DNA of 59,524 nt, taken from positions 1 through 59,524 of the forward strand of contig NZ_VOGY01000015.1 of the NCBI RefSeq assembly GCF_008033385.1, read 5' to 3'. Source of the DNA: Algibacter pacificus. GTDB lineage: Bacteria > Bacteroidota > Bacteroidia > Flavobacteriales > Flavobacteriaceae. This document shows positions 23,543-43,482 of the stretch, one piece after another (position 1 is the stretch's first letter; every line of letters starts with the position of its first letter). A program made the translations under genes and the position numbers. The notes under the pieces were generated by a model. That model was not told where the DNA came from. It ran no database searches and saw only the letters and a list, made by a program, of their open reading frames with translations.

Positions 23543-23545
23543 CAT

Positions 23546-23577: not shown

Positions 23578-23849
23578 TATTTCTTATAAGTTTTTATTAC
23601 ACCTCTTTGGGATTATTCGGGATCAATCCAGATTGTTGTGTTTACGCAAAATTGTTGTTAATCTATAGAGGAAGAATTCTATATGTTTAACCTCTCTAAA
23701 TTGACTTCTTAAGCCTTTGATTTTAGGATTATTCTAAGGATTTAGCAGAGTTAAAAATATTTCTAAGATTTTGAGCCAAGTTAAAAGCTGTTTTGATTTC
23801 TTGATATTACTTGAATGTTATTTGACTTCTTTCATATTGATTTTTAGGT
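23578..23849. other. Gene-free AT-rich stretch at the left end of the candidate island
   Basis: The gap from tRNA-Val to the aminotransferase gene is 307 bases. Beyond the tRNA terminator I see no gene, no recognisable integrase remnant and no strong hairpin. A short frame that runs through the tRNA is not a gene. Confidence 0.6.
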
Positions 23850-25361
23850 TTAAAAACTAAACCAGCTTTTTGTTATTTCTTTTTCAATAACCAGACTTCC
23901 TTTATGAATAAATTCATTTTTAAAAGCATCGTATTGATAGTCTTTGCTCCATTCTGAGTAGTTTTTTGCTACTAGTTTTATAGCATCACAAATAAAGTTT
24001 ATTTCCTCATTTGTCATGGTTGGGTGAATAGACATACGTATCCAGCCTGGGCGATCAATTAAACACCCCTCTAAAATCTTTTTTTCAATAGATTTTGATG
24101 TTGATTGATTCACATTTAGTAAATAATGTCCGTAAGTTCCAGCACAACTACAACCACCACGAGTTTGTACTCCAAATCTATCATTTAAAAGTTTCACTAC
24201 TAAATTATAGTGAACGTTATCAATATAAAATGAAAATACTCCCAAGCGGTTTTTGTGGTTAGGTGCTAAAATTTTAAGGTTGGGTATTTTCGTGAGTTTT
24301 TCAAAAATGATGCTATTCAATTCATGCTCTCTTTCTAAAATATTTTGCACACCCATTTCCTCTTTTAGCTGTATAGAAAGCGCAATTTTTATAGCTTGTA
24401 AAAATCCTGGAGTACCACCATCTTCTCGGGTTTCAATATCGTCAATATAATCATGGTCTCCCCATGGGTTTGTATAAGACACTGTGCCACCACCAGGGTT
24501 ATCTGGTACCAAATTTTTATATAATTTTTTATTGAAAATTAACACTCCTGAAGCTCCTGGTCCACCTAAAAATTTATGAGGAGAAAAGGTTACAGCATCT
24601 AAATATTCATCTTCATTCTCGGGGTGCATATCGATATCGATATAAGGAGCAGAACAAGCAAAATCTACAAAGCAAAGCCCATTGTTTTCATGCATTATCC
24701 TAGAGATATCGTAGTAATTGGTTCGTATGCCTGTAACGTTAGAGCATCCAGTTATGGCTGCTATTTTTATAGGACAATTTCTGTGTTTTTCAATGAGTTT
24801 TTTTAGGTTTTCAGTACAAGGTAATCCGTTGCTGTTTGAAGCAATAACCTCTACCTTGGCTATGGTTTCTAGCCATGATGTTTGATTAGAGTGGTGCTCC
24901 ATATGAGACACAAAAATTACAGGTCTTTTTTCTTCAGGAATAGCCGTGTGATCTTTTAAATTCTCGTTGAGTTTGATACCTAAAATACGTTGGAATTTAT
25001 TGATGGCTCCCGTCATTCCCGTTCCTACTGTGATAAGAACATCATCTTTTGATGCGTTTACATGTTTTTTAATGATGTTTCTTGCCTTATGGTAGGCTAG
25101 AGTCATGGTAGAACCTGTAATAGAGGTTTCTGTATGTGTATTAGCAACAAAGGGGCCTATTTCATTAAGGATTTTTTCCTCTATGGGGCGATACAATCTG
25201 CCACTTGCTGTCCAATCGGCATAAATGATTTTTTTTCTGCCGTAGGGCGATTCAAAAAATTGATTGTTGCCAACAGTATGATTTCTAAAAGGTGTAAAAT
25301 AAGTTTCTAAATTGCTGTTATTTTGAACTTTAGAATCAGATTTTTTTGCTGTAACATTCAT
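23850..25361 (-). CDS. Class V aminotransferase-fold PLP enzyme, cysteine desulfurase-like
   Basis: The 503-residue fold-type I PLP enzyme has the family start YADWTASGRLYRPIE, HMEHHSNQ (ring-stacking His near 153), and the Schiff-base lysine motif TFSPHKFLGGPGASG (Lys263). A C-terminal loop reads TRGGCSCAGTYGH, with Cys404 and Cys406 where cysteine desulfurases keep their catalytic Cys. The enzyme is about 100 residues longer than IscS/SufS. The fold suggests release of sulfur or selenium from a cysteine-type substrate, but relatives also do other lyase reactions. It is the last gene of the minus-strand island cluster, 69 bases after dsbD. Confidence 0.8.
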   Translation of the reverse strand: MNVTAKKSDSKVQNNSNLETYFTPFRNHTVGNNQFFESPYGRKKIIYADWTASGRLYRPIEEKILNEIGPFVANTHTETSITGSTMTLAYHKARNIIKKHVNASKDDVLITVGTGMTGAINKFQRILGIKLNENLKDHTAIPEEKRPVIFVSHMEHHSNQTSWLETIAKVEVIASNSNGLPCTENLKKLIEKHRNCPIKIAAITGCSNVTGIRTNYYDISRIMHENNGLCFVDFACSAPYIDIDMHPENEDEYLDAVTFSPHKFLGGPGASGVLIFNKKLYKNLVPDNPGGGTVSYTNPWGDHDYIDDIETREDGGTPGFLQAIKIALSIQLKEEMGVQNILEREHELNSIIFEKLTKIPNLKILAPNHKNRLGVFSFYIDNVHYNLVVKLLNDRFGVQTRGGCSCAGTYGHYLLNVNQSTSKSIEKKILEGCLIDRPGWIRMSIHPTMTNEEINFICDAIKLVAKNYSEWSKDYQYDAFKNEFIHKGSLVIEKEITKSWFSF

Positions 25362-25430
25362 AATTAGATTTATTTTAAGAATAAAATAATATAGTTATTT
25401 AATAGTTACTGATGTAACCGTGAGTGTATT

Positions 25431-27404
25431 TTATTTGCCGCCTTGATTTTTAAAATTAGAGATTCCTTTTTCTAACCAAGCGTTGTATGTATCAACATCG
25501 GGTGTATAAGCAACGGGCTCTATAAGATTATCTTCATGATGATCCATCAAGACATACATGGGTTGTGTATTGGCTTTGTACTTAATGGTTTGTAATTCAC
25601 TCCACTTTTGTCCAATATATTTAAGCTTTTTACCTGGTTTTAATTTAGACTCTACAACTTCATCGTCTTTTAATTTACGCTTATCATCTACGTATAAAGA
25701 AATAAGAATGACATTATTTTTAAGTTTTTCTAATACTTGAGGTTTTACCCAAACATTTTGTTCCATCTTTCTACAGTTAACACAGGCGTGTCCAGTAAAA
25801 TCAATCATAACAGGTTTACCAACCTTTTTAGCATAAGCTAAGCCTTTATCATAATCGTTAAAAGCTAATATATCATGAGGCGGCATTATATGCGCTCCAT
25901 CGGGTAAATTTTCGTGGTTGTTAGATGATGCGTTACCAGAGCCTAGTTTGGTATAACCAACACCATAAGGCGATTCGCTATAATGTTGTGGTGGAGGAAA
26001 AGCGCTTATTAAATTTAATGGAGCGCCCCATAAACCAGGAATCATATAAATGGTAAAAGCTAATGATAGTAACCCTAAGCTAAGTCTTCCTACCGAGATA
26101 TGAGACAATGGCGAATCATGAGGTAGTTGTATTTTGCCAAATAAATACATGGCTAGAGTACCAAAAATGGCAATCCAAATAGCAATAAAAACTTCTCTTT
26201 CTAACCAATGTAGTTGTAAAACTAAATCGGCATTAGATAAAAATTTAAATGCTAAAGCAAGTTCTAAAAAGCCAAGCACTACTTTAACAGTATTTAGCCA
26301 ACCACCAGATTTTGGTAAAGAATTTAACCATCCAGGAAAAGCAGCAAATAAAGCAAACGGTAATGCGATAGCTAAAGAAAACCCTAACATACCCACTATT
26401 GGCCCCGATTGACTGCCACCTGAGGCGGCTTCAACCAGTAAAGTACCAACAATAGGGCCAGTACAAGAAAACGATACTATAGCTAAGGCTAAGGCCATAA
26501 AGAAAATGCCTATTAACCCGCCTCTATCTGCTTGCGAGTCTACTTTGTTAGCCCAAGAATTAGGTAACATAATTTCAAAAGCTCCTAAAAAAGAAGTTGC
26601 AAATATTATTAACAAAATAAAGAATACTAAATTAAACCAAACATTGGTAGATAATGCATTTAAAGCATCGGCACCAAAAATTAAACTTACTAAGGTGCCT
26701 AAAAGTACGTATATAACAATAATAGATACGCCATAAATAATGGCATTTTTAATACCAGCAGCTTTGTTTTTACTTTGTTTGGTAAAGAAACTAACCGTCA
26801 TAGGTATCATAGGGAATACGCAAGGTGTTAAAAGGGCGGCAAACCCAGAGAAAAAAGCTATGAAGAATATGCCCCATAATCCTTTTGATTCTTTTACGGG
26901 AGGCATTGATTCAGTGCTGCTTTCTATTGTTGTATTGGTGTTTTCTACACTGCTGCTAGTGTTGATGTTGAAAGTTAAGTCTACTTCTGTAGGAGGTAAA
27001 CACCTAGCATCATCACATACCATAAATTCTACGAAAGCTTGAATGCTTTCTACAGGTTCTGATACTTTTATTTTTTGTTTAAAAGCGGCCTTATTTTCAA
27101 AAAACTTAATCACCATATCAAACACAGGGTCATTAACAGAGTGTCCTATTTCTTCTAAGGTGTTTCCTATTAAGGTGATTTTACTATTAGCATCATCAAA
27201 CGTGAAAGTTGTAGCAATGGGGCCGCCTTCTGGTACGTTTTGTGAGTATAGATGCCAACCAGATTCAATTTGAGCTTCAGCAATTAAAATATATTCTGTA
27301 TCAGATAGCTTCTCTACAGATGCATTCCATTTTACGGGATCTACTATTTGCGCATTACTAAATAGGGAAAAGCATAAAGAGAGTATAAAAACTATTTTTT
27401 TCAT
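25431..27404 (-). CDS. dsbD: Thiol:disulfide interchange protein DsbD
   Basis: The 657-residue membrane protein has a signal peptide, then an N-terminal alpha domain with the redox pair [11 protein letters not shown] (Cys130, Cys135). An eight-helix transmembrane domain follows with its pair in [11 protein letters not shown] (Cys195) and [10 protein letters not shown] (Cys314). The C-terminal thioredoxin-like domain has [10 protein letters not shown] (Cys541, Cys544). All six catalytic cysteines of a complete DsbD are present. It carries electrons from cytoplasmic thioredoxin to periplasmic thiol proteins, here presumably the two TlpA-type neighbours. A free copy of its alpha domain is encoded 26 bases upstream. 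Confidence 0.93.
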
Positions 27405-27429
27405 ATAAAAAATTTAGTGCGAATAAAAA

Positions 27430-27876
27430 TTATTTAATAGTAAAGGAGAGTTCTTTTTCAGTTGGAGGTAAACATCTAGCATCATCACATACCATAAATT
27501 CAACAGTAGAATTAACTTTAAATGGTATTTTTCCTTTTAATTTAATACGTTGTTTGAAGACGGCTTGTAGCTCAAAAAATTTGATTTCCATATCAAAAAT
27601 TTTGTCATGAATGGTATGGCCTTTTTCTTCTTTGGTATTACCTTTTTTTAAGTAATAGCCATTGCTTTCAAAAGTAAAACTTGTAGCTATTGGACCACCT
27701 TCTGGTACTGTTTGCGAATATAAATGCCAATTTTCTTCAATAGTTGCTGTAGCAATTAATTCGTATTCTGAATCTGAAATTTTATTAACGCTTGTAGACC
27801 ATTTTACAGGTTCTAAAATTTGGGAGAAACTATTAGCAGAGCATACCAAAGCTAACAATATTAGTAATTTTTTCAT
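27430..27876 (-). CDS. Stand-alone DsbD alpha-like domain protein
   Basis: The 148-residue exported protein corresponds to the first 148 residues of the adjacent DsbD and nothing more. The signal peptide is followed by a PVKW strand, [14 protein letters not shown], and the redox pair [12 protein letters not shown] at the same positions (Cys130, Cys135). It looks like a tandem duplication of the DsbD N-terminal domain that became a separate periplasmic protein. It could relay electrons from membrane DsbD to more than one target, or serve as a spare acceptor domain. Both genes are in the same operon-like run. Confidence 0.85.
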   Translation of the reverse strand: MKKLLILLALVCSANSFSQILEPVKWSTSVNKISDSEYELIATATIEENWHLYSQTVPEGGPIATSFTFESNGYYLKKGNTKEEKGHTIHDKIFDMEIKFFELQAVFKQRIKLKGKIPFKVNSTVEFMVCDDARCLPPTEKELSFTIK

Positions 27877-27894
27877 AATTGTTTAATTGTTTTA

Positions 27895-27924
27895 AAAAGG
27901 GTTATGTTTTACGATAACCCTTTT
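27895..27924 (-). terminator. Hairpin after the M16 peptidase gene
   Basis: A perfect 11-bp stem AAAAGGGTTAT/ATAACCCTTTT with an 8-base loop lies in the 130-base gap between the peptidase gene and the DsbD-alpha gene. It may reduce, rather than stop, read-through. Confidence 0.6.
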
Positions 27925-28006
27925 GATCCTCTTTCTTAGATTTAAAATAAATTTATTGACTGACTAACTCAAAAAATCACACCAAAACAAGTGTTTAAAA
28001 GAAAGA

Positions 28007-30805
28007 TTATAAATTATTGTTAGGTTTAAATACTATTTCAAAAAACTTTCCTTGGTTTTGCAATTTTTTTGCTAGTACTTGGATGTCTTTAGTGGTTATG
28101 TTGTTTATAACGTCTTCAAAGTTTTTAGGATTGTTCATGTTGTACCCATCTCTATAAAACGTTGTTAATAAAGCCATATCGTAACCGTTATTGCTTTTAG
28201 ATTGCTCTCTTGATTTTTTATAACTAGTAAGGGTTTTATCTAAATCTTCTTGTTTAATATTACCTGTAGCTATTTTAGATAATTCGTTATGAACAATATC
28301 AATAAGTTTTTCAGCTAACTCTGGGTTGCAATCAAAATTGACAGATAAATATGATAAAACTTTAGGTTCTTTGGTTAAAAACGCCCCAGCTCTTGGACTG
28401 TAAACCCCACCTTCTTCTTCACGTAATGTTTCTGTTAATCTTAATTGCATGATAGCACCTAAAGCTTTGGTTGCATAATTGTTTTTTACGCTGTAGTCAT
28501 TAGCTATTTTAAATGCTATGTTAACATTGGTTTTAGGGTCTTCCATAGGAAGGAATATATCTTCATCTACATTGTTGCTTGCCCATGGTTGCGATACATC
28601 TTTAAAGGCTTCGGTATCTGTTGTTGTTGGTAAGCTTGCAATATATTTTGATAAAAGAGGCTCTAATTGTTCTGCTTTAACATCGCCTACAATAAAAAAC
28701 TCAAAATCTGCAGGATTAGCAAATCGGTCTTTATACACAGATTTTATTTTGTTAAAAGAAATTTCATTTACATAATCTTGATTAAAAATTCTTTTTCTAG
28801 GATTGCTATTACCGTACAGGGTAGTTGTAATGCTGTCTTTCATTTGCTCACCAATATCCTTGCTTCTTTTAATTAAGTAATTAGATATGTTGCCTTGAAG
28901 CACTTGAAAAGCTTGTTCATCAAAACGAGGTTTAACAAAGTATAAGTGGGCTAGTTGCAGCATGGTTTCTACATCTTTAGTCGTAGAAGCTCCTTTAAGG
29001 TTTTCTGTGGTTTCTCCTATACTCGGTGTCATTGAAGCTGATTTTCCTGCTAAAATTTTTGGTAGTTCTGTTGCTGAAAATTCACCTAAACCAGACATTT
29101 GAATTAAGTTACCTGCTAGGTTAGCAGATGGTAAATCTTCATCTTTTATTAATGAATTACCACCATGACTTATAGCATTAAAGGCAACTGTGTTTTTTTG
29201 CTTGTTGGCAAATTTATAATGTATTTTAATGCCATTGCTTAAGGTATAAGTTGTAGAACCAATAGCTTCATTTTTTTCGATACTTACTATGCTTCCTTCC
29301 TTTATATCTAATCCTGAAATTAGAGTTTTACCTTCAAACTCTTCAGTATAAGGCGTAAGGTTAGGATTATTTTCAACCGCGTTGATAATTTTATAAGCTT
29401 GCTTTTCTGTTAAATTATTTTGTCCTTCTACACCTGTAACATTTAAAAATCTATTCTTTTCAGTATAAAGTCTTTTTATGGTGTTGTGTAAATCTTCTGG
29501 AGAAAATGTAGTAAATAGTTGTTTAGCTATTTCATATTCTTTTTCAATATCAGCTATGGTTTTGTTATTTAGGTAGTTGTCTTTGATGATGTTAATTAAG
29601 CTACCGTGTGTTTTATCATCTTTTTTAGCTATTTGAGTTTCATAATGGTTTGAAAATTTTTTAATAGTTCTATCAATTTCTGAAGATGTAAAACCAAATT
29701 TAACAGCTCTATAAACTTCTGTTAGCACTTCAGCGAAGGCTTCTTGTTGCGCTCCTAGTTTAGGGCTTATTGTCATGCTAAAAACATTATTAGCTTTGGA
29801 TAATGAATTGTACCTTAAATTAGCACCTAAAAAATGAGCATCTGGTTTTTGAGCTACTTCGCTTATTCTTGCAGAGAGCATATTGGTTACCATGGATTCT
29901 AATAAAGCGTTCTTTAAATCTTTAACAGTTTCGTCATTTAAAGATTTTTTATGGCGAATACCAAAATTTATCATAGCGGTAGATATTTCTTTATCCATAC
30001 CTAAGCTATATAGCATATCTTCGTTTTCTGGTATTTCAACAATAAAACGCTCTCTTGGATTTTCAACGGCTGGTATTTTAGAAAAAAGCGCTTTTATTTT
30101 GGCTTCAATAGTATTAACATCAAAATCACCTACTACAGCAATGGCTTGTAAGTCTGTTCTATACCAGTCGTGATAAAAATCTCTTAAAGCTTTGTATTCA
30201 AAATTCTCGACAATACTCATTAAGCCAATGGGTAATCTGTCGGCATATTTTGAATGGTTAAAAGTTATTGGTAGTGATGTTTGAAACAAGCGCATTTGTC
30301 CGTTTTGGCGTGTACGCCATTCTTCTTTAATTACGCCTCTTTCTGCATCAATTTCTTCATCAGTTAATAATAAATAGTTACACCAATCATGTAATACTAA
30401 TAAACCTTGATCTATTAATTCTGGAGTCGTTGGAACATTATTAATGTTATAAACGGTTTCATCAAAACTTGTATAAGCATTTATATCTCTACCAAATACT
30501 AAACCTTTTTCTTGAAACGTATTAAGTATGCCTTTACCTTTAAAATTTTCGGTTCCATTAAAGGCCATGTGCTCTAAAAAGTGTGCCAATCCTTGTTGGT
30601 CATCATTTTCTAAAACAGAACCTACATTTTGAATTATATAATAACTAGCCGCGTTTTTTACAACATCTGTACTTTTTATATAGTATACTAGTCCGTTTGG
30701 TAACACGCCTTTTTTTATGGTTTTATCTACCGGTATTGGGGCAGATAAATTTTGGGCAAAAAGGTTTATGCTTAATAGTAGGCATAAAGCTGATAATTTT
30801 TTCAT
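28007..30805 (-). CDS. M16-family zinc metallopeptidase, two-domain
   Basis: The 932-residue protein has a signal peptide (about 1-18) and two M16 halves. The first half holds the inverted zinc motif HFLEH (His75, Glu78, His79), with the third ligand Glu155 seventy-six residues on, in EERGVIKEEW context. This half should therefore be active. The second half (about 480-932) lacks the motif, as in pitrilysin/PqqL-like single-chain enzymes. It is expected in the periplasm and cleaves short peptides held in its chamber. In this cluster it probably trims an imported peptide or conjugate. It is downstream of the first TlpA-type gene. Confidence 0.92.
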   Translation of the reverse strand: MKKLSALCLLLSINLFAQNLSAPIPVDKTIKKGVLPNGLVYYIKSTDVVKNAASYYIIQNVGSVLENDDQQGLAHFLEHMAFNGTENFKGKGILNTFQEKGLVFGRDINAYTSFDETVYNINNVPTTPELIDQGLLVLHDWCNYLLLTDEEIDAERGVIKEEWRTRQNGQMRLFQTSLPITFNHSKYADRLPIGLMSIVENFEYKALRDFYHDWYRTDLQAIAVVGDFDVNTIEAKIKALFSKIPAVENPRERFIVEIPENEDMLYSLGMDKEISTAMINFGIRHKKSLNDETVKDLKNALLESMVTNMLSARISEVAQKPDAHFLGANLRYNSLSKANNVFSMTISPKLGAQQEAFAEVLTEVYRAVKFGFTSSEIDRTIKKFSNHYETQIAKKDDKTHGSLINIIKDNYLNNKTIADIEKEYEIAKQLFTTFSPEDLHNTIKRLYTEKNRFLNVTGVEGQNNLTEKQAYKIINAVENNPNLTPYTEEFEGKTLISGLDIKEGSIVSIEKNEAIGSTTYTLSNGIKIHYKFANKQKNTVAFNAISHGGNSLIKDEDLPSANLAGNLIQMSGLGEFSATELPKILAGKSASMTPSIGETTENLKGASTTKDVETMLQLAHLYFVKPRFDEQAFQVLQGNISNYLIKRSKDIGEQMKDSITTTLYGNSNPRKRIFNQDYVNEISFNKIKSVYKDRFANPADFEFFIVGDVKAEQLEPLLSKYIASLPTTTDTEAFKDVSQPWASNNVDEDIFLPMEDPKTNVNIAFKIANDYSVKNNYATKALGAIMQLRLTETLREEEGGVYSPRAGAFLTKEPKVLSYLSVNFDCNPELAEKLIDIVHNELSKIATGNIKQEDLDKTLTSYKKSREQSKSNNGYDMALLTTFYRDGYNMNNPKNFEDVINNITTKDIQVLAKKLQNQGKFFEIVFKPNNNL

Positions 30806-30882
30806 GTTTAGTTTTTTATATGTTTATTATAAGGTAGACGTAATAATTTTTATTTACCCCTATTAATAAAATGTTAATTTAT

Positions 30883-32262
30883 TTAAATTTGAAGGGTGTT
30901 AAAAAGTTCTATCAGTTTTTCATCAGAAGGTCTAGGTGCATTATTATCAACAATGTTGCCCTTGGGGTCTAGAAGAATAAATTTTGGAATGCCTTTTATA
31001 ATATAATCTTTTATAAAATCTGACTGAAAATTATTATCAGCTATTAATTGAATACCTCCAAGCGCTTCTTCTTTAATCATGTTTTTCCATTTTTTATGAT
31101 TTTGGGGTTTATCTAGCGATATACTCACAAAATGAATGTTTTTGTTATGATATTTTTTTTCTATTTTCTTTAAAAATGGGGTTTCTTTTCTACAAGGGGC
31201 GCACCATGTAGCCCATACGTCTATATATACATATTTGCCTTTTAAATCTTCTAAAGAGGTGGTGTCTCCATTATAGTTTTCATAATTATAGAATTTTGGT
31301 GATGGATTTCCTGGTTCAACCTGTTTTAGTTTTTTATAGTACTCTTCAATTATTTTTAATTGTTCTTTATCAGTATTAGCTTTTTTAAACGCGTTATAAT
31401 AATCATCTAAATGTTTTGTAATAGTGATAGCAAAAGTGGCACCTTTTTTCGATAAATTGTTTTTAATAGATTCGCTTGGAATTTTTGCATAAGTTATTAA
31501 AGCCGCAATATCTTTTGGTACAGATTCTGTTTCACTAAATTTTTCGGCTTCTTTGGTGTAGTGTTTTGCTACTAAATATTGATATGTTTTGTATAACCAA
31601 TAATCTTTTTCATTATTATAATCGATATTTTTTAGAGAGGCTAAAAACTCATCAGAAACTTTAAAATCAGGATTTTTTGTATATATTTTATGAAATCTTT
31701 CATAATAGTTTAGGGCATACAAATAGTTATATTCAATGTCTTTTTCTTGAAAGGTTTTAAACTTAGAGGGTAATTCATCATTACTCGCAACTAAATTTGT
31801 TTTTAATGATTTTAATGCATCCATTTTTTTTGCAAAAGCAGATTCTTCTAAGAGGTAGAAGTTTTCATACCCTGTAAATTGTTTCACATGCTCGTCTGTA
31901 TATTTTATAAAATTATTTTCAATAGATCCATTGCCACTCGTTGAAAATGTGCTATCAATATTTTCTGTGTTTGCAGTAATAGATAAATCGAAACCTTTAT
32001 CTAAGTAGAGAGATATTTTTTTATTACTATATTTAAAATCGTAATAGCCTTGAACAAGATCTAGAGTGTCTAAAAAACTGCCATCTTCATTAATTTTTAA
32101 AGTATAGCTATATGTTTTTTTTAAGCTATTTGCAATCATAATGGCACCAGAATTAGCCCCATCAAGTTTTCCTTTTACGATGGCGTAATTTATTGTTGGC
32201 TTTTGCTTTTCGCAAGATATAAATGTGATTAGTGATAATAGGGCGTAAAAAATTTTTTTCAT
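30883..32262 (-). CDS. TlpA-like thioredoxin lipoprotein with DUF4369-type N-terminus
   Basis: The 459-residue lipoprotein (lipobox FISC, Cys17) has a beta-rich N-terminal domain like DUF4369 (about 25-115) and a long helical middle. A C-terminal TlpA/ResA-type thioredoxin domain (about 320-459) follows, with VWATWCAPCRKE (Cys354, Cys357) and the cis-Pro segment IKGIPKFILLD. It should reduce disulfides at the periplasmic side of a membrane, with electrons from DsbD. It lies 77 bases upstream of the M16 gene. A second protein of similar design is encoded at 32642. Confidence 0.88.
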   Translation of the reverse strand: MKKIFYALLSLITFISCEKQKPTINYAIVKGKLDGANSGAIMIANSLKKTYSYTLKINEDGSFLDTLDLVQGYYDFKYSNKKISLYLDKGFDLSITANTENIDSTFSTSGNGSIENNFIKYTDEHVKQFTGYENFYLLEESAFAKKMDALKSLKTNLVASNDELPSKFKTFQEKDIEYNYLYALNYYERFHKIYTKNPDFKVSDEFLASLKNIDYNNEKDYWLYKTYQYLVAKHYTKEAEKFSETESVPKDIAALITYAKIPSESIKNNLSKKGATFAITITKHLDDYYNAFKKANTDKEQLKIIEEYYKKLKQVEPGNPSPKFYNYENYNGDTTSLEDLKGKYVYIDVWATWCAPCRKETPFLKKIEKKYHNKNIHFVSISLDKPQNHKKWKNMIKEEALGGIQLIADNNFQSDFIKDYIIKGIPKFILLDPKGNIVDNNAPRPSDEKLIELFNTLQI

Positions 32263-32641
32263 GGTAATAATTTTTATTTGTGTTTATTATATGTGCTTTT
32301 TAGAAAAGATAATCCAATCTCTTCAAGTAGTTTCTATGTATAATATTGGGTATTTGGGTTAATGATGGGTAAAAGGACGTGTTCTTGAAACTCTAAAAAT
32401 TTCAATCAAACTCAAGTGTTAAGTACAAAATATTTTACAATTCATTTTATAATAATTCATAAACTGAGGTATACCTTATATTCCAATTTAAATTAGCCAT
32501 TGGTATTGGTGGGGCTATAATTTCCTTCTAATTACTTTTTAGTTGGAATATTGATACGGATTATACGCTACACTTTTGTTACTAGTTTTTATTCGTATTA
32601 AAAGTTTAATGATTTAGAGTTTTAATTACATTAGGAATTTT
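32263..32641. other. 379-base gap between the two TlpA-type genes
   Basis: No gene or RNA is recognisable here. The stretch is very AT-rich, and neither a clear terminator nor a perfect TAnnTTTG promoter is visible on the minus strand. It divides the cluster into a SusC-side block and a DsbD-side block, which could be separately transcribed. Confidence 0.5.
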
Positions 32642-33883: not shown

Positions 33884-33893
33884 AATTATGACT

Positions 33894-34946
33894 TTAATTT
33901 GTTAAACGAATACCATCCAAACAAAATGTAGGATCATAAACCATTGATCCAGATCCATCTGTATAAGAGGATGATATTCTAAATAATACTTTATCTACTT
34001 CTCCTAAGGAAGTTAAATCAACTTTGGTCCAATCATTTAAAATGAAATCGTACTCAGGATGTTCTGGATCTGTATTAGGTAAAGCTGCTAAATAAAAATC
34101 AACATCTCCCGTAAGTGTTTCATTTAAATAGCCTTCTATTTTAAGCTTTATATAGCCCGTTGATAGCGCATTATATGCTGTAATGGAATCGTTTATTGCT
34201 TCAGCTTCAGTGCCACCAGCGTTTCGTGTAGCTTCGGCAGCCGTAGCACCAGCCTCTCTTTTGGCTAATTCAGCATGACTACTTAGTCGAACTGCATTTG
34301 ATCCATTAGGCGCAGGTAAGGTAAAGCGACCATAACGACTTGCTGAGGTATTAGGGTTTTGAATATTTCTCACCTTGGCGCCATCAATAGTGTAGGATTG
34401 TGTTTCTGTGTCAAATGTGCCAGAATAAATAGAACCGTAGGAAGCTAGTAAATAGTTATAGGTAGTATTTGCTACCAGTATATGTTCAACGGTTGCAGGA
34501 GCGCTTAGTGTAAAGTAAGCATCCTCTCCATCTGCACGTCCTACCAAATAATTTTCAGTTCTATTGGGTCTAACGGTTGTTACACTAAAGGCTGTAGAAT
34601 CAATTGAAGCCTGCTTTTCAGCTGGTGTAATTCCTCCTGCTGGGGCAAAATCTGGACTTAAGTTCCATGGATAAGAACGCCAGTTTTTATTAGAGAGTGC
34701 AAATCCACTATAAGACCCACTACCACCAGCTGAAACATTTACGGTGATTACACCCGATTCATCATCTCCAGTTGTAAAGGGAGTGTTAGGAATGTTATAA
34801 GTAAATCTATCTAATTCAAGCTCATTAAAAGTAATATCATTAGGATAAGGAACTTTTAATTCTATACTATCATCTGCGCAAGAATATAAGCCAAGTAAGC
34901 ATGTTAAAATAGCTGCAATTTGTATATGTTTTTGTATGAATTTCAT
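33894..34946 (-). CDS. DUF4465 surface lipoprotein
   Basis: The 350-residue lipoprotein (lipobox YSC, Cys23) has DUF4465 hallmarks: GFALSNKNWRS near 81, YFTLSAP, VANTTYNYLL, then GDVDFYLAALPN, DWTKVDLTSLGEVDKVLFRIS and a C-terminal FCLDGI. A roughly 43-residue Ala/Glu-rich, probably helical insertion (about 220-262) interrupts the beta-rich domain. Genes of this type often accompany TonB receptors. I recall, without certainty, that DUF4465-type lipoproteins include cobalamin binders. It is probably the ligand-binding surface partner of the SusCD pair next to it. Confidence 0.8.
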   Translation of the reverse strand: MKFIQKHIQIAAILTCLLGLYSCADDSIELKVPYPNDITFNELELDRFTYNIPNTPFTTGDDESGVITVNVSAGGSGSYSGFALSNKNWRSYPWNLSPDFAPAGGITPAEKQASIDSTAFSVTTVRPNRTENYLVGRADGEDAYFTLSAPATVEHILVANTTYNYLLASYGSIYSGTFDTETQSYTIDGAKVRNIQNPNTSASRYGRFTLPAPNGSNAVRLSSHAELAKREAGATAAEATRNAGGTEAEAINDSITAYNALSTGYIKLKIEGYLNETLTGDVDFYLAALPNTDPEHPEYDFILNDWTKVDLTSLGEVDKVLFRISSSYTDGSGSMVYDPTFCLDGIRLTN

Positions 34947-34963
34947 ATTCGTTTTGGTTTAAA

Positions 34964-36472
34964 TTATTCTAAATCTGGATTTTGCGTCATTAATCTGTTA
35001 TTTATCATTTCTTCATTTGGAATTGGATAACAAATTTTATTTTCTTCTAAAGGTTTTCCACCTTTAATGCTTTCTATCCATGGTTTGCCTGCTTTCATAA
35101 ATCTAAGTGATGCAAAAAATTCGCTACCATTTTCTAAAAATGTTTCTAAGAAATATTCTTGAAAAATTAAATCCATTAATTCTTGTTCATTACTTGGGTT
35201 TAGGCTGGGTAAACTTGGGTTAGTGCGTATGGAACGCATTAAATTGATAGGAGCAATGGCATCTGATATAGAAGCCCCTGTTCTAGCAAGCAATTCTGAT
35301 TTCATAATATAGAGTTCGGGGTATCTAAAATAGTATGCGGCGTATTTTTCATCGGGTGGATTAGATTGTTGTCCTGCATAACGACCTAAACGAGCTAATT
35401 TTGGCCAAGTGTAATACATGGTGTTATCCCAGGTCTCGGCACCCCGAACAGGACCGGTTACAATATCCCATCGTGGGTCGGCTTTAAACCAGTCAATTCC
35501 ATATTCAAGACCAGCAGTTAAGCTTTCTCCTGGACCTAAAGGTAATCTATCTCCTATAATTTGTGCTAATCCATAGGGGTACCAATATCCGGCGTTAGTG
35601 GTTCTACGTCCATCATCATCTAAATATCTTACAAATAAGTTTTCTGGAGAATCCCATGAATCTTCATATACCTGCGCTAAATCTTCCTGCATTGCAAAAC
35701 CAGCAGGGCTTGACTCTAGTACATCATTAACCAGAGAAAGAGCTTCGTTTAAATCTGAGGTTGTATTGTTGTACCCGCCACGGTAAAGCAAAATCTTAGC
35801 TTTTAATACCTTTGCAAATTCTTTGGAAACATATCTAGGACTTTCAAAAGTGCCTAATTTGGCAATGGCATAATCTAGGTCTTCAAAAATTTTAGTATAA
35901 CTTTCACCAATAGAAATTCTGGCTTTTTCAACATTACTTAGGTTTGTTACTTCATCTCTATATAATAAACCATAAGGGTTAGTGTCATCATCACTCCACC
36001 AATGGCCATAATTCCATAATAAATTAATATTTACCCAAGCGCGTAAGCACTTACCTTCTGCAATCAAAGCTTCACGTTCTGCTTCGCTAGGTACAGCATT
36101 TTCGGGAAGGTTTATTGCTCCATTTATTGCGAAATTAGCAGCGTTTAGTGTTTTGTAAAAAGTGGTCCAAAATGCCTTTCCGGTTTCAGTATTATTAAGT
36201 TGGTTATATTCCATCTCATAATCGCCACTACTCCAATTTACAAATCCAGATTTAGAGGCAAGAGCTACATACAAACCTCCAGACCAATCACCTCCCGCGC
36301 TGGCTCCAGAAAAGTTGGCGTAAATGCCACCTAGAGCGGCTTCAGCCTTACTAAAAGAGGTTAGTGCATTTTCTTCGTTTAAGGAATAACTCGGTTCTTT
36401 TTCTAAAAAGTCTGAACAAGCGCTCACCGTAAAAATTAGGGTGAACAATGATATATTTAATAAATTTTTCAT
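34964..36472 (-). CDS. SusD/RagB-family outer-membrane lipoprotein
   Basis: The 502-residue lipoprotein (processing site VSAC) has the SusD N-terminal signature DFLEKEPSYSLNEENAL, TPR-like helical segments such as AEREALIAEGKCLRAWVNINLLWNYG, and the C-terminal ENKICYPIPNEEM typical of RagB/SusD. It should form the lid of the SusC barrel encoded 11 bases upstream. Unlike the SusD at 8695 it is of the classical RagB branch. The ligand cannot be read from the sequence. Confidence 0.92.
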   Translation of the reverse strand: MKNLLNISLFTLIFTVSACSDFLEKEPSYSLNEENALTSFSKAEAALGGIYANFSGASAGGDWSGGLYVALASKSGFVNWSSGDYEMEYNQLNNTETGKAFWTTFYKTLNAANFAINGAINLPENAVPSEAEREALIAEGKCLRAWVNINLLWNYGHWWSDDDTNPYGLLYRDEVTNLSNVEKARISIGESYTKIFEDLDYAIAKLGTFESPRYVSKEFAKVLKAKILLYRGGYNNTTSDLNEALSLVNDVLESSPAGFAMQEDLAQVYEDSWDSPENLFVRYLDDDGRRTTNAGYWYPYGLAQIIGDRLPLGPGESLTAGLEYGIDWFKADPRWDIVTGPVRGAETWDNTMYYTWPKLARLGRYAGQQSNPPDEKYAAYYFRYPELYIMKSELLARTGASISDAIAPINLMRSIRTNPSLPSLNPSNEQELMDLIFQEYFLETFLENGSEFFASLRFMKAGKPWIESIKGGKPLEENKICYPIPNEEMINNRLMTQNPDLE

Positions 36473-36483
36473 CTGTTGATTTT

Positions 36484-39400
36484 TTACTGAAGGTTAATTT
36501 TAATTCCAAGATTATAAATTTGGGCAGATGGATAGGTACTTTCATCTACTGCCATTCCAGAGCCAATGGAAGAAGATGTCCAGTTTCCTTGTGGGTCAAA
36601 TCCAGGGTATTTCGTTAATGTAAATAAATTTGTTGCTTGAAAGGTTAAATCTATTCCATTTACCACCATATTCTTAAACAGTTTACTTGGAAGTTTATAG
36701 GTAATATTTAATGCGTTTAAACGCAAGTATGATGCATCATGAAGATAAAAATCAGAGAATCTATTATTACTTCCAATGCCGTATTGAGCCATTCTAGGAT
36801 AGCTTGCTTCATAAGGACTGTTTAAAATGGTGCTTTGACCAGCAATTAAATTTGATTGATTGTAATTTCCAACATATCCAATATCACTAAGAGGCAATTT
36901 CCACAATCTTGTATGGCCAAAAGCGTAGGTGAAAGCTGCATTTACCAAAAGACCTTTATATCGGTAGGTTAATCCAAAACCTCCAAAACCTTTAGGGACA
37001 GATGATCCTAAATTTACACGGTCTTCATTGGTGATTTTACCGTCTCCATCTTGATCGATAAAAATTAAATCGCCTGCTGTTTCTTGTGCGCTATTTAAAT
37101 AGGTTGTTTGTCCTGTTTCAGTTCTACCTTGATTAGCGATGGCATCTTCTGCATTAACATAAAACCTTCCGGCGGTTTGGAAGCCAAACCATTGTCCTGT
37201 TTCTTCACCTTCAAGCATACGAATATAAGTGGTTCTAGAACTTGGAAATAATAGTTCTTCCGTATCTCCATTGATTTTGGTTACTTTGGTGACATTTTTC
37301 GAGAAATTAAAATCAAAGGTTAGTCGTTGATTTGAGGTACGAAGGATATCGTACTTGATATCAAATTCAAATCCATCATTTTTAATTGAAGCAACATTAG
37401 AAGTAATACTGCTAAACGCTGAACTTGGAGCTAGTGGAGATGAATAGATTAATTCATCACTTCTTTTTTGATAAATACCAATAGAACCATAAATTCTATC
37501 GTCTAATAAACCAAAATCTAATCCTAAATCAAACATTTGTGTTTGCTCCCATTGCAAGTTAGGGTTTCCAATAGAACTGGGCTGGATAGCTGGGTTTTCA
37601 TTATACCGAGTAGATCCTACTTGTGTAATCCAGTCAAAGTTACCGAGATTTTGTGATCCTGATAAACCTAAAGAAGCTCTAAGTTTTAGATAATTTACAT
37701 ATTTAGTGATATTTTCATTTTGCATGAATTTCTCACTAGACACTAACCAAGCGGCTGCGCCAGAAGGGAATATTCCCCAACGTTTGTCAGCTCCAAAACG
37801 AGATGACCCGTCTCTACGAATGGTACCAGAGATAATATAACGATCGTCAAATTTATAGTGCACACGAGCAAATTGAGATATTAATGCGTTTTCTGTTTGG
37901 GTTTCGGTTATGTTTCCTACAGAAGCTGCAGAGCTGAAGTTGTTTAAAATGTCATCATCTGGAAAGTTAGTAGCACTCATTGAATATCCCCGAACGATAT
38001 TATTTTCTAGAGAGTAGCCAGCTAAAGCACGAATGTCATGTTTGTCATTAATCATCTTCGCATACGTTAATGTGTTTTCCCAAACGTTTAAAGAAGCTTT
38101 ACTATTATACCAACTTCGGCTACCGGTAGTATTAAATCGACTTCCTGATCTAGAATAATTTAAGTTTTGGCTATCTGTATAATTATTGGTAAAAGCTGTA
38201 CGAAAGTCAAGGCCTTCAACAATGCCTATATCTAAAAAAGCAGTTCCATTGAATGTAATACCTTTTCCAGACCGAGTATTTTTTAAGGTTGTGTAAGGGT
38301 TCTCTGTGTAACGGTCTTTGGTGAAAATACTTCCGTCTTCATTAAACGCTGGAATATCGGGTCTAACTTTCTTTAATATATCTAGCATATAATCTTTGTC
38401 ATCAGAGTTACGAGTGCTACCACTTAAATTAAGCCCAAATTTAATGTTATTGTTTATTTTAGTATCTAAATTTACCCGACCACCATATAATTCACTTTTA
38501 CCTGTTTTAACAATCCCTTCCATATTTCTGTAATTAAAGGATACAAAATAGGTTGTTGCTTCTGAGCCACCACGAACCGAAAAATCTTGTTGCGTTACCA
38601 GTGGGTTTTGAGTCATCTCTTCTTGCCAATTGGTATTACCATCAAAATATGCAGTTGGTAAAACTTGTAAATCGGTTTTATCGTATTCACTTGTGTTTAA
38701 ATCGAAAAAAGCTTGTTGATCTAAATAAGATCTAGAGAAGTAATCGAATCCAGGTCTTACCATTATCATTTCTCTCGCTGCTGCATCAGCAAAAGTTTTA
38801 TATTCATCAGCTTCAAAATATTGATAACCATTAAAATCCATTACTTGAACACCTACTCGCGATGACACTTCAAAAATAGGTTTCATTCCGGCCTTGCCTT
38901 TTTTTGTTGTAACTATAACAACACCATTTGCAGCTCTAGAACCATAAACAGCGGTAGCAGAAGCATCTTTTAAAATATCAATACTTTTAACATCATTAAG
39001 GTTTAAGTTGTATAAAGTGTTGGCTATGTTACCTGAAGTTGTAGAAGAGTATTGGGGTACGCCATCTATAACCCATAAAGGCTGGTTGTTACCCGAAAGA
39101 GACGAAGCTCCACGGATTACTACACTAATAGGTGAAGTTGGTGATGCCGACTGTATTTGTACATTTACCCCAGCAGATCTACCTTGTAATAAGCTCTCTA
39201 CACTAGCACCCATGGGGGCATTTTCTATATCTTTAGCACTAATTCTAGAAATAGCACCTGTGGCATCTTTAATTTTTGATGTTCCATAGCCAATTACAAC
39301 AACCTCATCTAAGCCAGCAAGACTTGGTATCATATTTACATCAATTACGGTTTTGTTACCTATTGCAACCTCCAGATCTTTATATCCAAGGAAAGTAAAT

Positions 39401-39960
39401 ACCAAAACAATATTATTGTTTTGATTACTAATATTCAATTCATATTTACCATTAATATCAGTAGAGGCACCAGTCTGATGTCCTTTAAATATTACGTTTA
39501 CTCCAGGCAACGGTTCTCCTGTTTCGTCTAAAACGGTTCCTGTTATTTTTTGTTGAAATGATTTTAAGGATGAAACTGATTCAATAGGCTTTTCTGATAT
39601 TTGTTTTATGATTATTGTTTTATCGGAGGATAAAGAGTAGGAGAAATCGCCTTTTTCGAGGGTTTTATGCAATAGTGTCTCAATTTTAATTTTGCCTTTA
39701 TTTAAGGATACTTTTGGATAGTTATCAAATAAATGAGTTTGATAAATAAAATTGTAATCTGTTTGATTCATTATGAGTTCAAAAACCTCATCTACAGTTA
39801 TTGTTTGGTTTGTATGAATCGTTACTTTGCTTTGTGAGAATATGTTACCAGAGTTAAAACTAAAGACTGATGTACAGAGCAGGAGGATAAATGTTCTCAT
39901 CATAAAATGTAATGACTTGATTCTATTTTGGTAGAACCAATGGATTAATTTAATTTTCAT
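36484..39960 (-). CDS. SusC/RagA-family TonB-dependent transporter with STN domain
   Basis: The 1158-residue protein has an N-terminal STN signalling domain (about 45-118, FELIMNQTDYNFIYQ). A carboxypeptidase-regulatory-like domain (about 138-225), a TonB plug with DILKDASATAVYGSRAANG, and a long beta-barrel follow. The STN domain is the part that talks to FecR, so this receptor senses as well as transports and should induce its own cluster via the sigma factor at 41367. The start at 39960 gives a preamble before the hydrophobic signal (MMRTFILLLC), which is normal for STN-type SusC. A start at 39903 is the alternative. Confidence 0.93.
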   Translation of the reverse strand: MKIKLIHWFYQNRIKSLHFMMRTFILLLCTSVFSFNSGNIFSQSKVTIHTNQTITVDEVFELIMNQTDYNFIYQTHLFDNYPKVSLNKGKIKIETLLHKTLEKGDFSYSLSSDKTIIIKQISEKPIESVSSLKSFQQKITGTVLDETGEPLPGVNVIFKGHQTGASTDINGKYELNISNQNNNIVLVFTFLGYKDLEVAIGNKTVIDVNMIPSLAGLDEVVVIGYGTSKIKDATGAISRISAKDIENAPMGASVESLLQGRSAGVNVQIQSASPTSPISVVIRGASSLSGNNQPLWVIDGVPQYSSTTSGNIANTLYNLNLNDVKSIDILKDASATAVYGSRAANGVVIVTTKKGKAGMKPIFEVSSRVGVQVMDFNGYQYFEADEYKTFADAAAREMIMVRPGFDYFSRSYLDQQAFFDLNTSEYDKTDLQVLPTAYFDGNTNWQEEMTQNPLVTQQDFSVRGGSEATTYFVSFNYRNMEGIVKTGKSELYGGRVNLDTKINNNIKFGLNLSGSTRNSDDKDYMLDILKKVRPDIPAFNEDGSIFTKDRYTENPYTTLKNTRSGKGITFNGTAFLDIGIVEGLDFRTAFTNNYTDSQNLNYSRSGSRFNTTGSRSWYNSKASLNVWENTLTYAKMINDKHDIRALAGYSLENNIVRGYSMSATNFPDDDILNNFSSAASVGNITETQTENALISQFARVHYKFDDRYIISGTIRRDGSSRFGADKRWGIFPSGAAAWLVSSEKFMQNENITKYVNYLKLRASLGLSGSQNLGNFDWITQVGSTRYNENPAIQPSSIGNPNLQWEQTQMFDLGLDFGLLDDRIYGSIGIYQKRSDELIYSSPLAPSSAFSSITSNVASIKNDGFEFDIKYDILRTSNQRLTFDFNFSKNVTKVTKINGDTEELLFPSSRTTYIRMLEGEETGQWFGFQTAGRFYVNAEDAIANQGRTETGQTTYLNSAQETAGDLIFIDQDGDGKITNEDRVNLGSSVPKGFGGFGLTYRYKGLLVNAAFTYAFGHTRLWKLPLSDIGYVGNYNQSNLIAGQSTILNSPYEASYPRMAQYGIGSNNRFSDFYLHDASYLRLNALNITYKLPSKLFKNMVVNGIDLTFQATNLFTLTKYPGFDPQGNWTSSSIGSGMAVDESTYPSAQIYNLGIKINLQ

Positions 39961-40011
39961 AAATTTGCTTGTTATTAGTTAGTTAAACGAATAATTAATA
40001 ATGATTTTCAG

Positions 40012-40056
40012 GAGGGTAAAGCGTTTTTACTTTGGCGAGCAGAAAACTTTACTCTC
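40012..40056. other. Hairpin between fecR and susC
   Basis: A 10-bp inverted repeat (GAGGGTAAAG/CTTTACTCTC, one G-T pair) with a 25-base loop lies in the 100-base gap. It could attenuate read-through from fecR into the receptor gene. Confidence 0.4.
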
Positions 40057-40060
40057 TTTC

Positions 40061-41233
40061 TTATTTTTTAATAGTAATTGTATTGTTGTTTATGTCATAG
40101 GCTTGAATTAATTTTGTGTTTTTTATTAGGATTAAAATGTTTTCCATGTTTTGATGCTTACTTAATTGACCATTAAACGTTAAATTCTTAGCAGCTTCAT
40201 CTTCAAAAATAACATTAACATCGTACCAACGAGAAAGTACTTTCATGATATCTTTTAAGGGTTTGTTTTTAAAACTGAATAAACCGTTTTTCCATGCAAT
40301 TTCATATTTTGGTTCAACGGTTGAGATTGTCATATTGTTATTTTTGGTATTTACAACAGCCTGTTGATTAACTAGTAAACTTTTATGATGTTTATTAGCT
40401 TGAAGTACTATTTTACCTTCTATTAAGGTAGTATATATATTGTCTTCATCTTTGTAAGCTTTAATGTTAAACTCTGTACCCAATACATCTATTTCTTGGT
40501 TGTTAGTTATTACCTTAAATTTTGAACCTTGATTATTTTCACTAGGTGAAACATCAAAATAGGCTTCACCATAAACTAATTCAACTTTTCTGGTTTTTCC
40601 TTTAATAAAAGTGACAGGATATTTAAGTTTAGATTCTGAATTTAACCATACTTGTGTGCCGTCTTCTAATATAATGTAATACTGTCCGCCTCTTGGTATG
40701 GTTAAATAGTTATAGGCAATCTCTCTACTGGCTTTACTGACTTTAACTTTTTTATTAGCCTTAGGGGGTGTTTTGTAAATTATTTTCTCTCCGTTACTCG
40801 CAATATTTTTATTCGCATATTGTTTTCCTTTTTCAAGGGCTACGCTTGTACCATCATCTAAAGTTAAAATAGCTTTATCTGTTCCTGTTTTTATATTGTT
40901 GTTTACAATAATAGGTGTGTTGCGGTCTGTTTTTAAGTTGTTTAAAACGAATGGAATACTTATTAATATAGCAATTAAAGATGCCGCAGCATACTTAAAT
41001 ATTTTTCTTTTAAAAAGCGGAATAACTTTAGGTTGTGATTCTATGTTTTCTAAAACATTATTAAAAGCGGTATCAACATCTACTTTGTTGTACAGCTTGT
41101 TTAGGTTAAAATCATCAATTATAAAATCTTTAAAGATTTTATGGTTTTTGGGTTTTTTTAACCAGTCTTGTAGCTTGTTTAGTTCTATATCATCAATAGA
41201 ATTTGTTAAATACTTTAAAATTAATTTTTTCAA
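40061..41233 (-). CDS. FecR-family anti-sigma / sigma regulator
   Basis: The 390-residue inner-membrane protein has a cytoplasmic N-terminal helical part, one membrane helix (about 82-100), and a periplasmic FecR domain (about 165-275: ITIPRGGQYYIILEDGTQVWLN-type region). A C-terminal DUF4974 domain follows (NKPLKDIMKVLSRWYDVNV). It passes the signal from the STN domain of SusC to the ECF sigma factor. It is on the minus strand with susC, while the sigma gene is divergent, 133 bases away. In the usual layout sigma and FecR genes are in tandem. Confidence 0.92.
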   Translation of the reverse strand: MKKLILKYLTNSIDDIELNKLQDWLKKPKNHKIFKDFIIDDFNLNKLYNKVDVDTAFNNVLENIESQPKVIPLFKRKIFKYAAASLIAILISIPFVLNNLKTDRNTPIIVNNNIKTGTDKAILTLDDGTSVALEKGKQYANKNIASNGEKIIYKTPPKANKKVKVSKASREIAYNYLTIPRGGQYYIILEDGTQVWLNSESKLKYPVTFIKGKTRKVELVYGEAYFDVSPSENNQGSKFKVITNNQEIDVLGTEFNIKAYKDEDNIYTTLIEGKIVLQANKHHKSLLVNQQAVVNTKNNNMTISTVEPKYEIAWKNGLFSFKNKPLKDIMKVLSRWYDVNVIFEDEAAKNLTFNGQLSKHQNMENILILIKNTKLIQAYDINNNTITIKK

Positions 41234-41366
41234 TTTTTAAAAGATTTTGTGGTGATTTATATAGGTGTCGTTTCTATTTTATAAAAACCCTTAAAAAAAT
41301 TAACGTTTTTTTTATTTTTTTTTTACATTATATATCTTCACATTTGTTAAACTTAACAATTTTTTA

Positions 41367-41930
41367 ATGCAGGATTTAGATCTTATTAATGCTATAAAAC
41401 ATAATGATGAAAATGCTTTTGAAGTATTATTCCAAAAGTATTATGCAGACCTTGTGAATTATATTACTGTTTTTACGCAGCATAGGTCTACTTCGGAAGA
41501 TATTGTACAACAGTTGTTTGTAGGGCTTTGGGTTAAACGAGGTGAATTAAATATAACAAAATCGGTTAAAGGCTATTTGTATACTGTTGCTCATAGAGCT
41601 TATGTAGATTATTACAGAAGTACAAAGCGAAGAAATGCGTTACTAGACGATTTAAAAGAACAAGCGTTAAGAGATAATATAAAGGAAGATAAAGAAATTG
41701 AAAAAAAAAGAATAAGAAAATTAAAACAAATAGTAGATACTTTACCACCAAAGTGTCAAGAAATTTTAAAGCTCAATAAACTAGAAGGGTTAAAATATCA
41801 AGAAATAGCTAATCGCTTAAATATCTCTGTAAAAACTGTAGAATCTCAAATGCGCATTGCTTATCAAAAAATACGAGAAGGTTTTGATAATGACTCCTCT
41901 GTTTTTATTATTATTTCAAAAGCTTTTTAA
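41367..41930 (+). CDS. ECF RNA polymerase sigma factor, FecI-like
   Basis: The 187-residue sigma-70 family protein has region 2 (ENAFEVLFQKYYADLVNY to YLYTVAHRAYVDYYR) and region 4 (LPPKCQEILKLNKLEGLKYQEIANRLNISVKTVESQM), the standard pair for ECF factors of the Bacteroidota FecI-like group. It probably directs transcription of fecR-susC-susD and the genes behind them when the receptor is loaded. It is the only plus-strand gene in the candidate island and lies just before the folC relic. Confidence 0.93.
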   Translation: MQDLDLINAIKHNDENAFEVLFQKYYADLVNYITVFTQHRSTSEDIVQQLFVGLWVKRGELNITKSVKGYLYTVAHRAYVDYYRSTKRRNALLDDLKEQALRDNIKEDKEIEKKRIRKLKQIVDTLPPKCQEILKLNKLEGLKYQEIANRLNISVKTVESQMRIAYQKIREGFDNDSSVFIIISKAF

Positions 41931-42435: not shown

Positions 42436-42443
42436 CAGAATAT

Positions 42444-43446: not shown

Positions 43447-43482
43447 AATTTATAGCTATTTAATTTAAATTTATCGCATAAA

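Follow-up and report, generated by a model that had tools for sequence, protein, structure and literature searches.

What would a flavobacterium take up through an outer-membrane transporter whose gene is followed by genes for thiol-disulfide reductases, a protease and a pyridoxal phosphate (PLP) enzyme? The question is raised by an 11-gene cluster at positions 23850-41930 of a stretch of 59,524 nucleotides from Algibacter pacificus (contig NZ_VOGY01000015.1 of assembly GCF_008033385.1), which is called here the window. Our reading, to which we give a probability of roughly 0.40, is that the cluster encodes an inducible, acquired outer-membrane importer whose cargo is a peptide or small protein with disulfide bonds, that is, a Fus-like, SusCD-based and protease-associated system with a reducing arm. 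What the sequences show is that the genes are present with residues of catalytic type, that they recur as a set and that some of them were exchanged as a module; from this we infer the import route. The 11 genes, all of them open frames, fill the region as follows:

23850-25361, minus strand: SufS-like PLP enzyme, possible cysteine desulfurase, predicted to be cytosolic (no signal peptide by eye)
25431-27404, minus strand: DsbD with alpha, membrane and thioredoxin-type domains and all six expected cysteines
27430-27876, minus strand: lone DsbD-alpha domain with CDDARC, a separate DsbD_N protein
28007-30805, minus strand: M16 protease (Peptidase_M16 and M16_C), two halves on a single chain, with HFLEH
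30883-32262, minus strand: TlpA1 (TlpA/AhpC-TSA) with CAPC, lipoprotein by eye (FISC)
32642-33883, minus strand: TlpA2 with CGPC, DUF4369 and TlpA domain
33894-34946, minus strand: DUF4465 jellyroll lipoprotein, B12-motif tyrosine lost
34964-36472, minus strand: SusD-family lipoprotein
36484-39960, minus strand: SusC transporter with an STN-like N-terminal domain (sub-threshold)
40061-41233, minus strand: FecR anti-sigma factor (FecR and FecR_C)
41367-41930, plus strand: extracytoplasmic function (ECF) sigma factor, divergent from the other ten genes

The ten minus-strand genes are transcribed in the order fecR, susC, susD, DUF4465, tlpA2, tlpA1, M16, dsbD-alpha, dsbD and PLP. Gaps between genes measure 10-130 bp, with the exception of 380 bp between tlpA1 and tlpA2; read for a precursor peptide, this gap holds no complete frame of at least 60 amino acids (shorter frames and the other gaps were not searched). 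Families were assigned with Pfam and NCBIfam profiles and, together with the open frames, these bear out the cluster of families named in the original prediction, which had been made from the sequence alone. Its description of an "STN-type" SusC held in part. The protein belongs to the SusC/RagA family (TIGR04056, 759 bits) and the sigma and FecR profiles were matched, but the STN domain scored 17.6 bits in Pfam, below the cut-off of 28.4; the label, which combines this sub-threshold match with the FecR and sigma neighbours, is a weak point. The same profile scan found no carbohydrate-active family among the 11 genes.

The original prediction had staked itself on co-occurrence of these families beyond this genome, and they do co-occur: the gene grouping is real across Bacteroidota. 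A search with a profile of seven DUF4465 proteins yielded 30 loci, spread over Flavobacteriaceae, Sphingobacteriaceae, Chitinophagaceae and Bacteroidales; three of the genomes contribute two loci each. The counts below refer to 29 of these loci plus the window (n=30); L056, which was omitted, also has SusC, SusD and TlpA matches. The core recurs in its order: SusD is present in all 30, SusC in 29, FecR in 25, the sigma factor in 24 and a thioredoxin-fold gene in 25. DsbD is found in 7, PLP in 6, a trypsin-like gene in 5, a lone or fused DsbD_N in 3 and M16 in 2. A thioredoxin-fold gene is missing from L049, L051, L053, L054 and L057, of which L053 and L054 offer only about 3.5 kb of downstream sequence. 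In L055, L058, L059 and L060 a protein of another thioredoxin cluster stands directly after DUF4465, and in L055 and L059, the two that were scanned with Pfam, it is of Thioredoxin_2 type. Thus the predicted combination of sensed uptake and thiol reduction recurs from Flavobacteriaceae to the other three groups, with its thioredoxin position filled by differing families.

As a background we used 129 SusC proteins from six genomes, five of which had been picked for holding the cassette, a choice made without regard to TlpA or DsbD; at most 42 SusC candidates were scored per genome, so that 129 may be an undercount. Of the DUF4465-linked SusC genes 6/6 have a long TlpA-type gene no more than 8 kb away, as against 9/123 others (Fisher p 8.8e-07); AhpC-TSA frames shorter than about 330 amino acids were excluded from this count. 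DsbD lies within 12 kb of 4/6 DUF4465-linked SusC genes and of 5/123 others (p 0.00016).

Some loci have further neighbours. ABC ATPase and ABC-2 permease genes flank the cassette in L011 (10430-13983), L015 (7283-10677), L034 (3-2781) and L036 (2-2592), from G339, G014 and Tamlana; the L034 ATPase and one L034 permease (DUF3526) were assigned by Pfam, the others by eye or by clustering. Elsewhere in the genome of A. pacificus, L069 (G000:C13:84001-104000) holds two facing SusC-SusD pairs with four TlpA-type genes between them, plus an amidohydrolase.

The reductases carry cysteines of catalytic type: CAPC in TlpA1, CGPC in TlpA2, CVNC and CDDARC in DsbD, and CDDARC again in the lone alpha domain. 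The relay domains of DsbD are complete (DsbD_N, DsbD_TM and Thioredoxin_7, with cysteines C130/C135, C195/C314 and C541/C544), and the TlpA CxxC is conserved in 29/29 aligned proteins. The transport proteins present a different picture. No column of the SusC alignment has cysteine in at least 30% of the 29 proteins, and 15/29 are free of cysteine beyond residue 45; DUF4465 has one invariant cysteine besides that of the lipobox, and SusD has two common ones (18/30 and 23/30) that are not strictly paired. Since SusC has no conserved cysteine, the reductases are left with no obvious target among the transport proteins. Action of TlpA and DsbD on the cassette's own transport proteins is argued against by these counts, the two SusD cysteines being common all the same; the likelier substrate is the cargo, or a partner outside the observed genes. 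The island DsbD is 78% identical to a DsbD on contig C4 of the same genome, where a second DsbD-TlpA pair (G000:C4:347400-350400, L107) has no adjoining PLP gene, unlike its counterpart in G153. In two loci from Bacteroidales, L052 (11181-12917) and L051 (12465-14456), proteins near the cassette contain a DsbD_N-like part; in L052 the protein has 578 aa, and Pfam locates DsbD_N at its C-terminus.

The M16 protein matched PDB entry 9ldy, PqqL (6ofs, E 4e-75) and the zinc proteases 6b03 (E 3e-39) and 6brs, which we take to be FusC, over most of its chain. A protease gene is present in all seven DsbD loci. The window and L039 have M16, whereas L034, L035, L037 and L044 have a trypsin-like gene and L036 an interrupted one, which does not enter the trypsin-like count of 5. 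L042 has a trypsin-like gene and no DsbD in view. G014 contains two tandem SusCD-TlpA-DsbD clusters without DUF4465, each with a 577-aa protein; the one that was scanned is a trypsin-PDZ protease, and the other shares its first 60 residues. G291 has a SusCD region with M16-DsbD-PLP, again without DUF4465, and an S9 peptidase nearby. Three protease families occur in this wider set of loci. The cutting step that had been predicted as part of the set is thus supported in Flavobacteriaceae, as M16 or trypsin-like. In the trypsin-like lipoprotein a CDxCPN motif just ahead of the protease domain is conserved in 5/5 cases (L034, L035, L037, L042 and L044); this motif is perhaps a redox switch.

Which of these genes belong to the ligand is suggested by a comparison with G339, a genome of another genus:

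30857-39250 (edges approximate), about 8.4 kb: intergenus exchange block, with most of susC, then susD, DUF4465, tlpA2 and tlpA1

As a single alignment, window positions 30857-40714 are 88.8% identical to G339 at the DNA level; identity is 68.6% for M16 and 73.4% for the stretch that runs from the lone alpha domain through the PLP gene. In steps of 300 bases it stays at 0.80-0.99 (mostly 82-99%) between about 39.2 kb and the end of tlpA1, and past the block, including the start of susC, it is about 67-73%. The FecR proteins are 55% identical, the sigma factors 37%, and the M16-DsbD-PLP part 62-79%, although G339, which lies outside the 30 counted loci, has M16, DsbD-alpha, DsbD and PLP in the window's order. 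By these alignments the SusC barrel, SusD, DUF4465, TlpA2 and TlpA1 have moved between genera as a block, whereas the signalling end of SusC, FecR/sigma and M16-DsbD-PLP differ. We read the moved block, both TlpA proteins included, as the probable ligand-specific part. Block exchange of this kind would make the ligand-specific genes identifiable: the SusC barrel, SusD, DUF4465, TlpA1 and TlpA2.

At the borders of the cluster as a whole lie these elements:

23468-23543, plus strand: tRNA-Val(tac), left border
23620-23847, strand not assigned: repeated non-coding element just inside the left border, with further matches elsewhere in the same genome
42150-42360 (start approximate), plus strand: decayed foreign folC 3' end with tRNA leader, right border
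42361-42436, plus strand: second tRNA-Val, identical to the first, at which native sequence restarts

In the two genomes of the same genus used for comparison (G153 and G335) the gene order is folC, tRNA-Val, 71 bp (G153) or 68 bp (G335), tRNA-Val and a LuxR-type gene. The match of the window to both spans folC and the first tRNA-Val, ends at 23547-23548 and restarts at the second tRNA-Val, and neither genome has a match to the window's DUF4465 protein. Such matches are sporadic in the family (7/397 genomes, its own included; the G381 match is weak and partial, and falls on another DUF4465 protein). By eye the folC remnant is closer to G339 than to the window's own genus, and its tRNA leader resembles the one in G339, which looks like a trace of the donor lineage; the folC stretches of the window genome and G339 are 73% identical. 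No integrase or recombinase gene is among the island's 11 genes. These comparisons indicate that the cluster is one horizontally acquired island, which probably entered by recombination across tRNA-Val. When the 30 loci and 11 further stretches were scanned, tRNA genes were found within about 1.6 kb of related cassettes in G339 (Pro), L044 (Pro), L045 (Ala) and L039 (Ser). Viral carriage was considered and rejected, none of the 49 viral-contig stretches that fit a pattern coding for a relative. The repeated element at 23620-23847 has more matches on contigs C2 and C9 (on C9 directly after tRNA-Met) and several copies in G021; judged by eye it could be an insertion-sequence remnant. A second variable segment, at window positions 43460-51870, is unmatched in the G153 and G335 stretches fetched save for a short repeat (46936-46985), and carries a tRNA-Thr (43522-43596); ARAGORN found none in those stretches.

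The original prediction treated the DUF4465 lipoprotein as an anonymous binder. It belongs instead to a published B12-binding family (PMC13398666), so that a cobamide ligand had to be weighed. According to that paper, eight diverse DUF4465 proteins bind B12 and an HI-loop tyrosine is retained in 97% of DUF4465 homologs; PMC12751083 gives Tyr146, Asn241, Thr242 and Tyr245 as the conserved hydrogen-bonding residues of BtuJ1. The window protein is a clear member of the family (PF14717, 86.4 bits against a cut-off of 25). Its model is an augmented beta-jellyroll with a mean predicted local distance difference test score (pLDDT) of 90.2, and every one of its nine PDB matches at E <= 0.001 is a DUF4465 structure. 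Short relatives, L057 and L062 among them, have a shorter middle loop. The MNTPSY of BtuJ1 reads MVYDPT in the window, which replaces the motif tyrosine, Asn and Thr, three of the four hydrogen-bonding residues. In the DE-helix, TTYNYL of the window aligns with TTYDYL at the helix start and the tyrosine is kept; from the paper's description, it probably corresponds to Tyr146 of BtuJ1.

The motif tyrosine is replaced in 11/12 flavobacterial members, L045 keeping it, and is kept in 17/18 members outside Flavobacteriaceae, L059 having Trp; G021 also keeps it. On the DUF4465 tree, from which L056 and the G-numbered genomes are absent, the 11 tyrosine-replaced members form one clade (support 96/92) with L045 outside, so that a single loss suffices. 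All seven DsbD-bearing loci are flavobacterial and lie within this clade. DsbD and tyrosine loss are associated when rows are compared by Fisher's test (p 0.00016, Trp counted as kept), a test that ignores shared ancestry. A single gain of the DsbD module was rejected as an explanation, the tree demanding at least four changes of label. As to cobalamin riboswitches, none was found in the window, and a scan of 29/30 loci (all but L060) gave one match, which lies in L037 past the sigma gene and on the other strand. No BtuC, BtuD, BtuF or other btu-type gene is among the island's 11 genes; the only cobalamin riboswitch of the genome lies on contig C10, where its neighbours look, by eye, like btuB, a BtuG-like gene and btuFCD. 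A clade without the motif tyrosine would set a limit to the recent view that B12 is bound by most DUF4465 domains.

The last gene of the cluster had led the original prediction to propose release of sulfur or selenium from the ligand. The enzyme is an aminotransferase of class V that comes nearest to the SufS model, below its cut-off (150.5 vs 475.1 bits). Aligned with SufS it shows SPHK, MEHH and RGGCSC over RAGHHC, with lysine, histidine and cysteine in place; these residues are presumably the catalytic ones of SufS. The enzyme occurs at E <= 1e-100 in 141/299 genomes of the family. Among the 29 best-scoring loci examined, the window not being one of them, 27 have DsbD within 1.5 kb upstream of the enzyme's gene, five of these with an intervening TlpA gene; none of the 29 is a DUF4465 cassette. 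The island copy is 78-85% identical to the stand-alone copies examined, and is the sole match at E <= 1e-100 in the window genome. DsbD and the PLP enzyme are thus a common flavobacterial pair, and an enzyme so widespread and so usually paired with DsbD says little about a sulfur- or selenium-bearing ligand. Release of sulfur or selenium is therefore weakly supported. Selenium or sulfur conjugates were dropped as ligand candidates for want of specific support, the enzyme being too widespread; nothing was found that points to metallothionein, phytochelatin or selenium, and the selenocysteine-lyase model gave 54.7 bits against a cut-off of 525.

How might such an importer work? SusD and the DUF4465 jellyroll lipoprotein would capture the cargo at the cell surface, and SusC would import it. 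A signal from the STN-like domain of SusC would pass by way of FecR to the ECF sigma factor, which would switch the cassette on. Once in the periplasm, the cargo would have its disulfides reduced by TlpA1, TlpA2 and the lone DsbD-alpha, with the cassette's DsbD relaying electrons from the cytosol. The M16 protease would then cut the opened chain, a role that the trypsin-like lipoprotein may take at other loci. The products would then enter the cytosol, and there the SufS-like enzyme may remove sulfur from cysteine; this is the weakest step. The theme of sensing, import, reduction and cutting is strengthened by the recurrence of the set and by swaps in two of its positions, the thioredoxin and the protease.

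Several observations weigh against this reading. The proposed cargo is unproven. The DsbD label needs its four or more changes on the tree, and DsbD is absent from 5/12 flavobacterial loci, the window being among the twelve (L033, L038, L041, L042 and L045), and from 18/18 loci of other families. L033, L038 and L041 have no M16 or trypsin-like match either, and G021 has the core and TlpA only, in the stretch fetched. Thioredoxin-like genes also adjoin some other SusC genes, as the 9/123 of the background indicate, and M16 proteases are found in many other contexts. Both DsbD-PLP and M16-DsbD_N-DsbD-PLP occur without SusCD and could be passengers. The binding of B12 by eight DUF4465 proteins has to be set on the same side.

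Four rival explanations were weighed. The main one, which we consider unlikely, is acquisition of cobamides: a BtuJ-type B12 scavenger would feed SusCD instead of BtuB, and the thiol proteins would free or reduce corrinoids. The B12 binders (PMC13398666), the shared fold with its presumed DE-helix tyrosine, and the motif tyrosine kept in 17/18 subfamily members outside Flavobacteriaceae all speak for it, but the change from MNTPSY to MVYDPT costs three of the four hydrogen-bonding residues described in PMC12751083. Moreover, the window lacks a riboswitch, with the one match among 29 scanned loci (L037) on the other strand, the island lacks BtuC, BtuD and BtuF while the genome's single riboswitch sits elsewhere beside btu genes, and B12 uptake leaves the protease unexplained. 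It is improbable, in our estimate, that M16, DsbD-alpha, DsbD and PLP are passengers, a general envelope-maintenance set linked by chance to a SusCD-DUF4465 importer. The DsbD-PLP pair is indeed common (27/29 loci), G155 has M16, DsbD_N, DsbD and PLP together with no SusCD in the fetched flanks (16 kb ahead of them and 7 kb behind), contig C4 holds a second DsbD-TlpA pair, and M16-DsbD-PLP did not travel with the transporter in the G339 exchange. TlpA, however, is near 6/6 DUF4465-linked SusC genes and moved with the transporter; DsbD is in 7/30 cassettes by several independent changes, and it recurs in the SusCD-TlpA clusters of G014 and the SusCD region of G291, both without DUF4465.

Sigma/FecR/SusCD sets are best known from glycan use, and this favours a common type of locus for the use of glycans or glycopeptides, switched by sigma/FecR, in which the thiol proteins would be incidental. 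L048, with a glycosidase pair (rhamnosidase and GH2 families) about 1-5 kb past TlpA, and a PNGase-F-like protein in L037 would fit, but with no carbohydrate-active family among the island's 11 genes and three protease families in the wider set, we find this explanation quite improbable. Least probable of all, at long odds, is piracy of iron or another metal, in which an intact iron-sulfur or metal-thiolate protein would be taken up and then cleaved by M16, as happens in Fus. The relation of the M16 protein to PqqL and to 6b03/6brs, together with the SufS-like enzyme, lends it something; against it, the 11 genes include no FusA-type transporter, TonB-like FusB or ABC-type FusD, there is no sign of iron regulation in what we examined, and to our knowledge Fus needs no DsbD or TlpA.

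If the reading of an importer of disulfide-bonded cargo is true, it would give Bacteroidota a route to feed on disulfide-stabilised peptides and proteins such as secreted inhibitors, bacteriocins and host defence peptides, and protease-associated import would extend to SusCD transporters. A broader version, which we hold as doubtful, makes the island one of a class of cargo-reducing importers in Bacteroidota, with SusCD, a dedicated DsbD-TlpA relay and an interchangeable protease, in whose flavobacterial branch DUF4465 changed its ligand.

Among the nearest known systems is the Fus or protease-associated import of Proteobacteria, in which a TonB-dependent transporter gene is likewise linked to a periplasmic M16 protease (PMC6793856); the words SusD, thioredoxin and TlpA never occur in the main text of that paper. 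The island M16 matches PqqL along most of its length. The island differs in that its transporter is a SusC with SusD, not of FusA/YddB type, that no TonB-like or ABC gene is among the other ten, and that sigma/FecR control, DUF4465, TlpA and DsbD are added. No SusCD-M16-TlpA system in Bacteroidota is named among the titles listed from the open-licence literature searched. BtuJ1, BtuJ2 and other B12-binding DUF4465 proteins (PMC13398666 and PMC12751083) share with the window protein the Pfam family, the fold and the DE-helix tyrosine; the window protein differs in having other residues in place of the motif tyrosine, Asn and Thr and SusCD as its partner, and no riboswitch or btu genes adjoin. 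Among SusCD pairs, the island SusC has its best match in PDB 8aa4, with RagA of the peptide importer RagAB second; this similarity is family-wide and does not fix the ligand, and the SusD matches are weak. Finally, compared with the DsbD-PLP pair common in flavobacteria, the island version comes after a SusCD cassette, M16 and an additional gene for DsbD-alpha.

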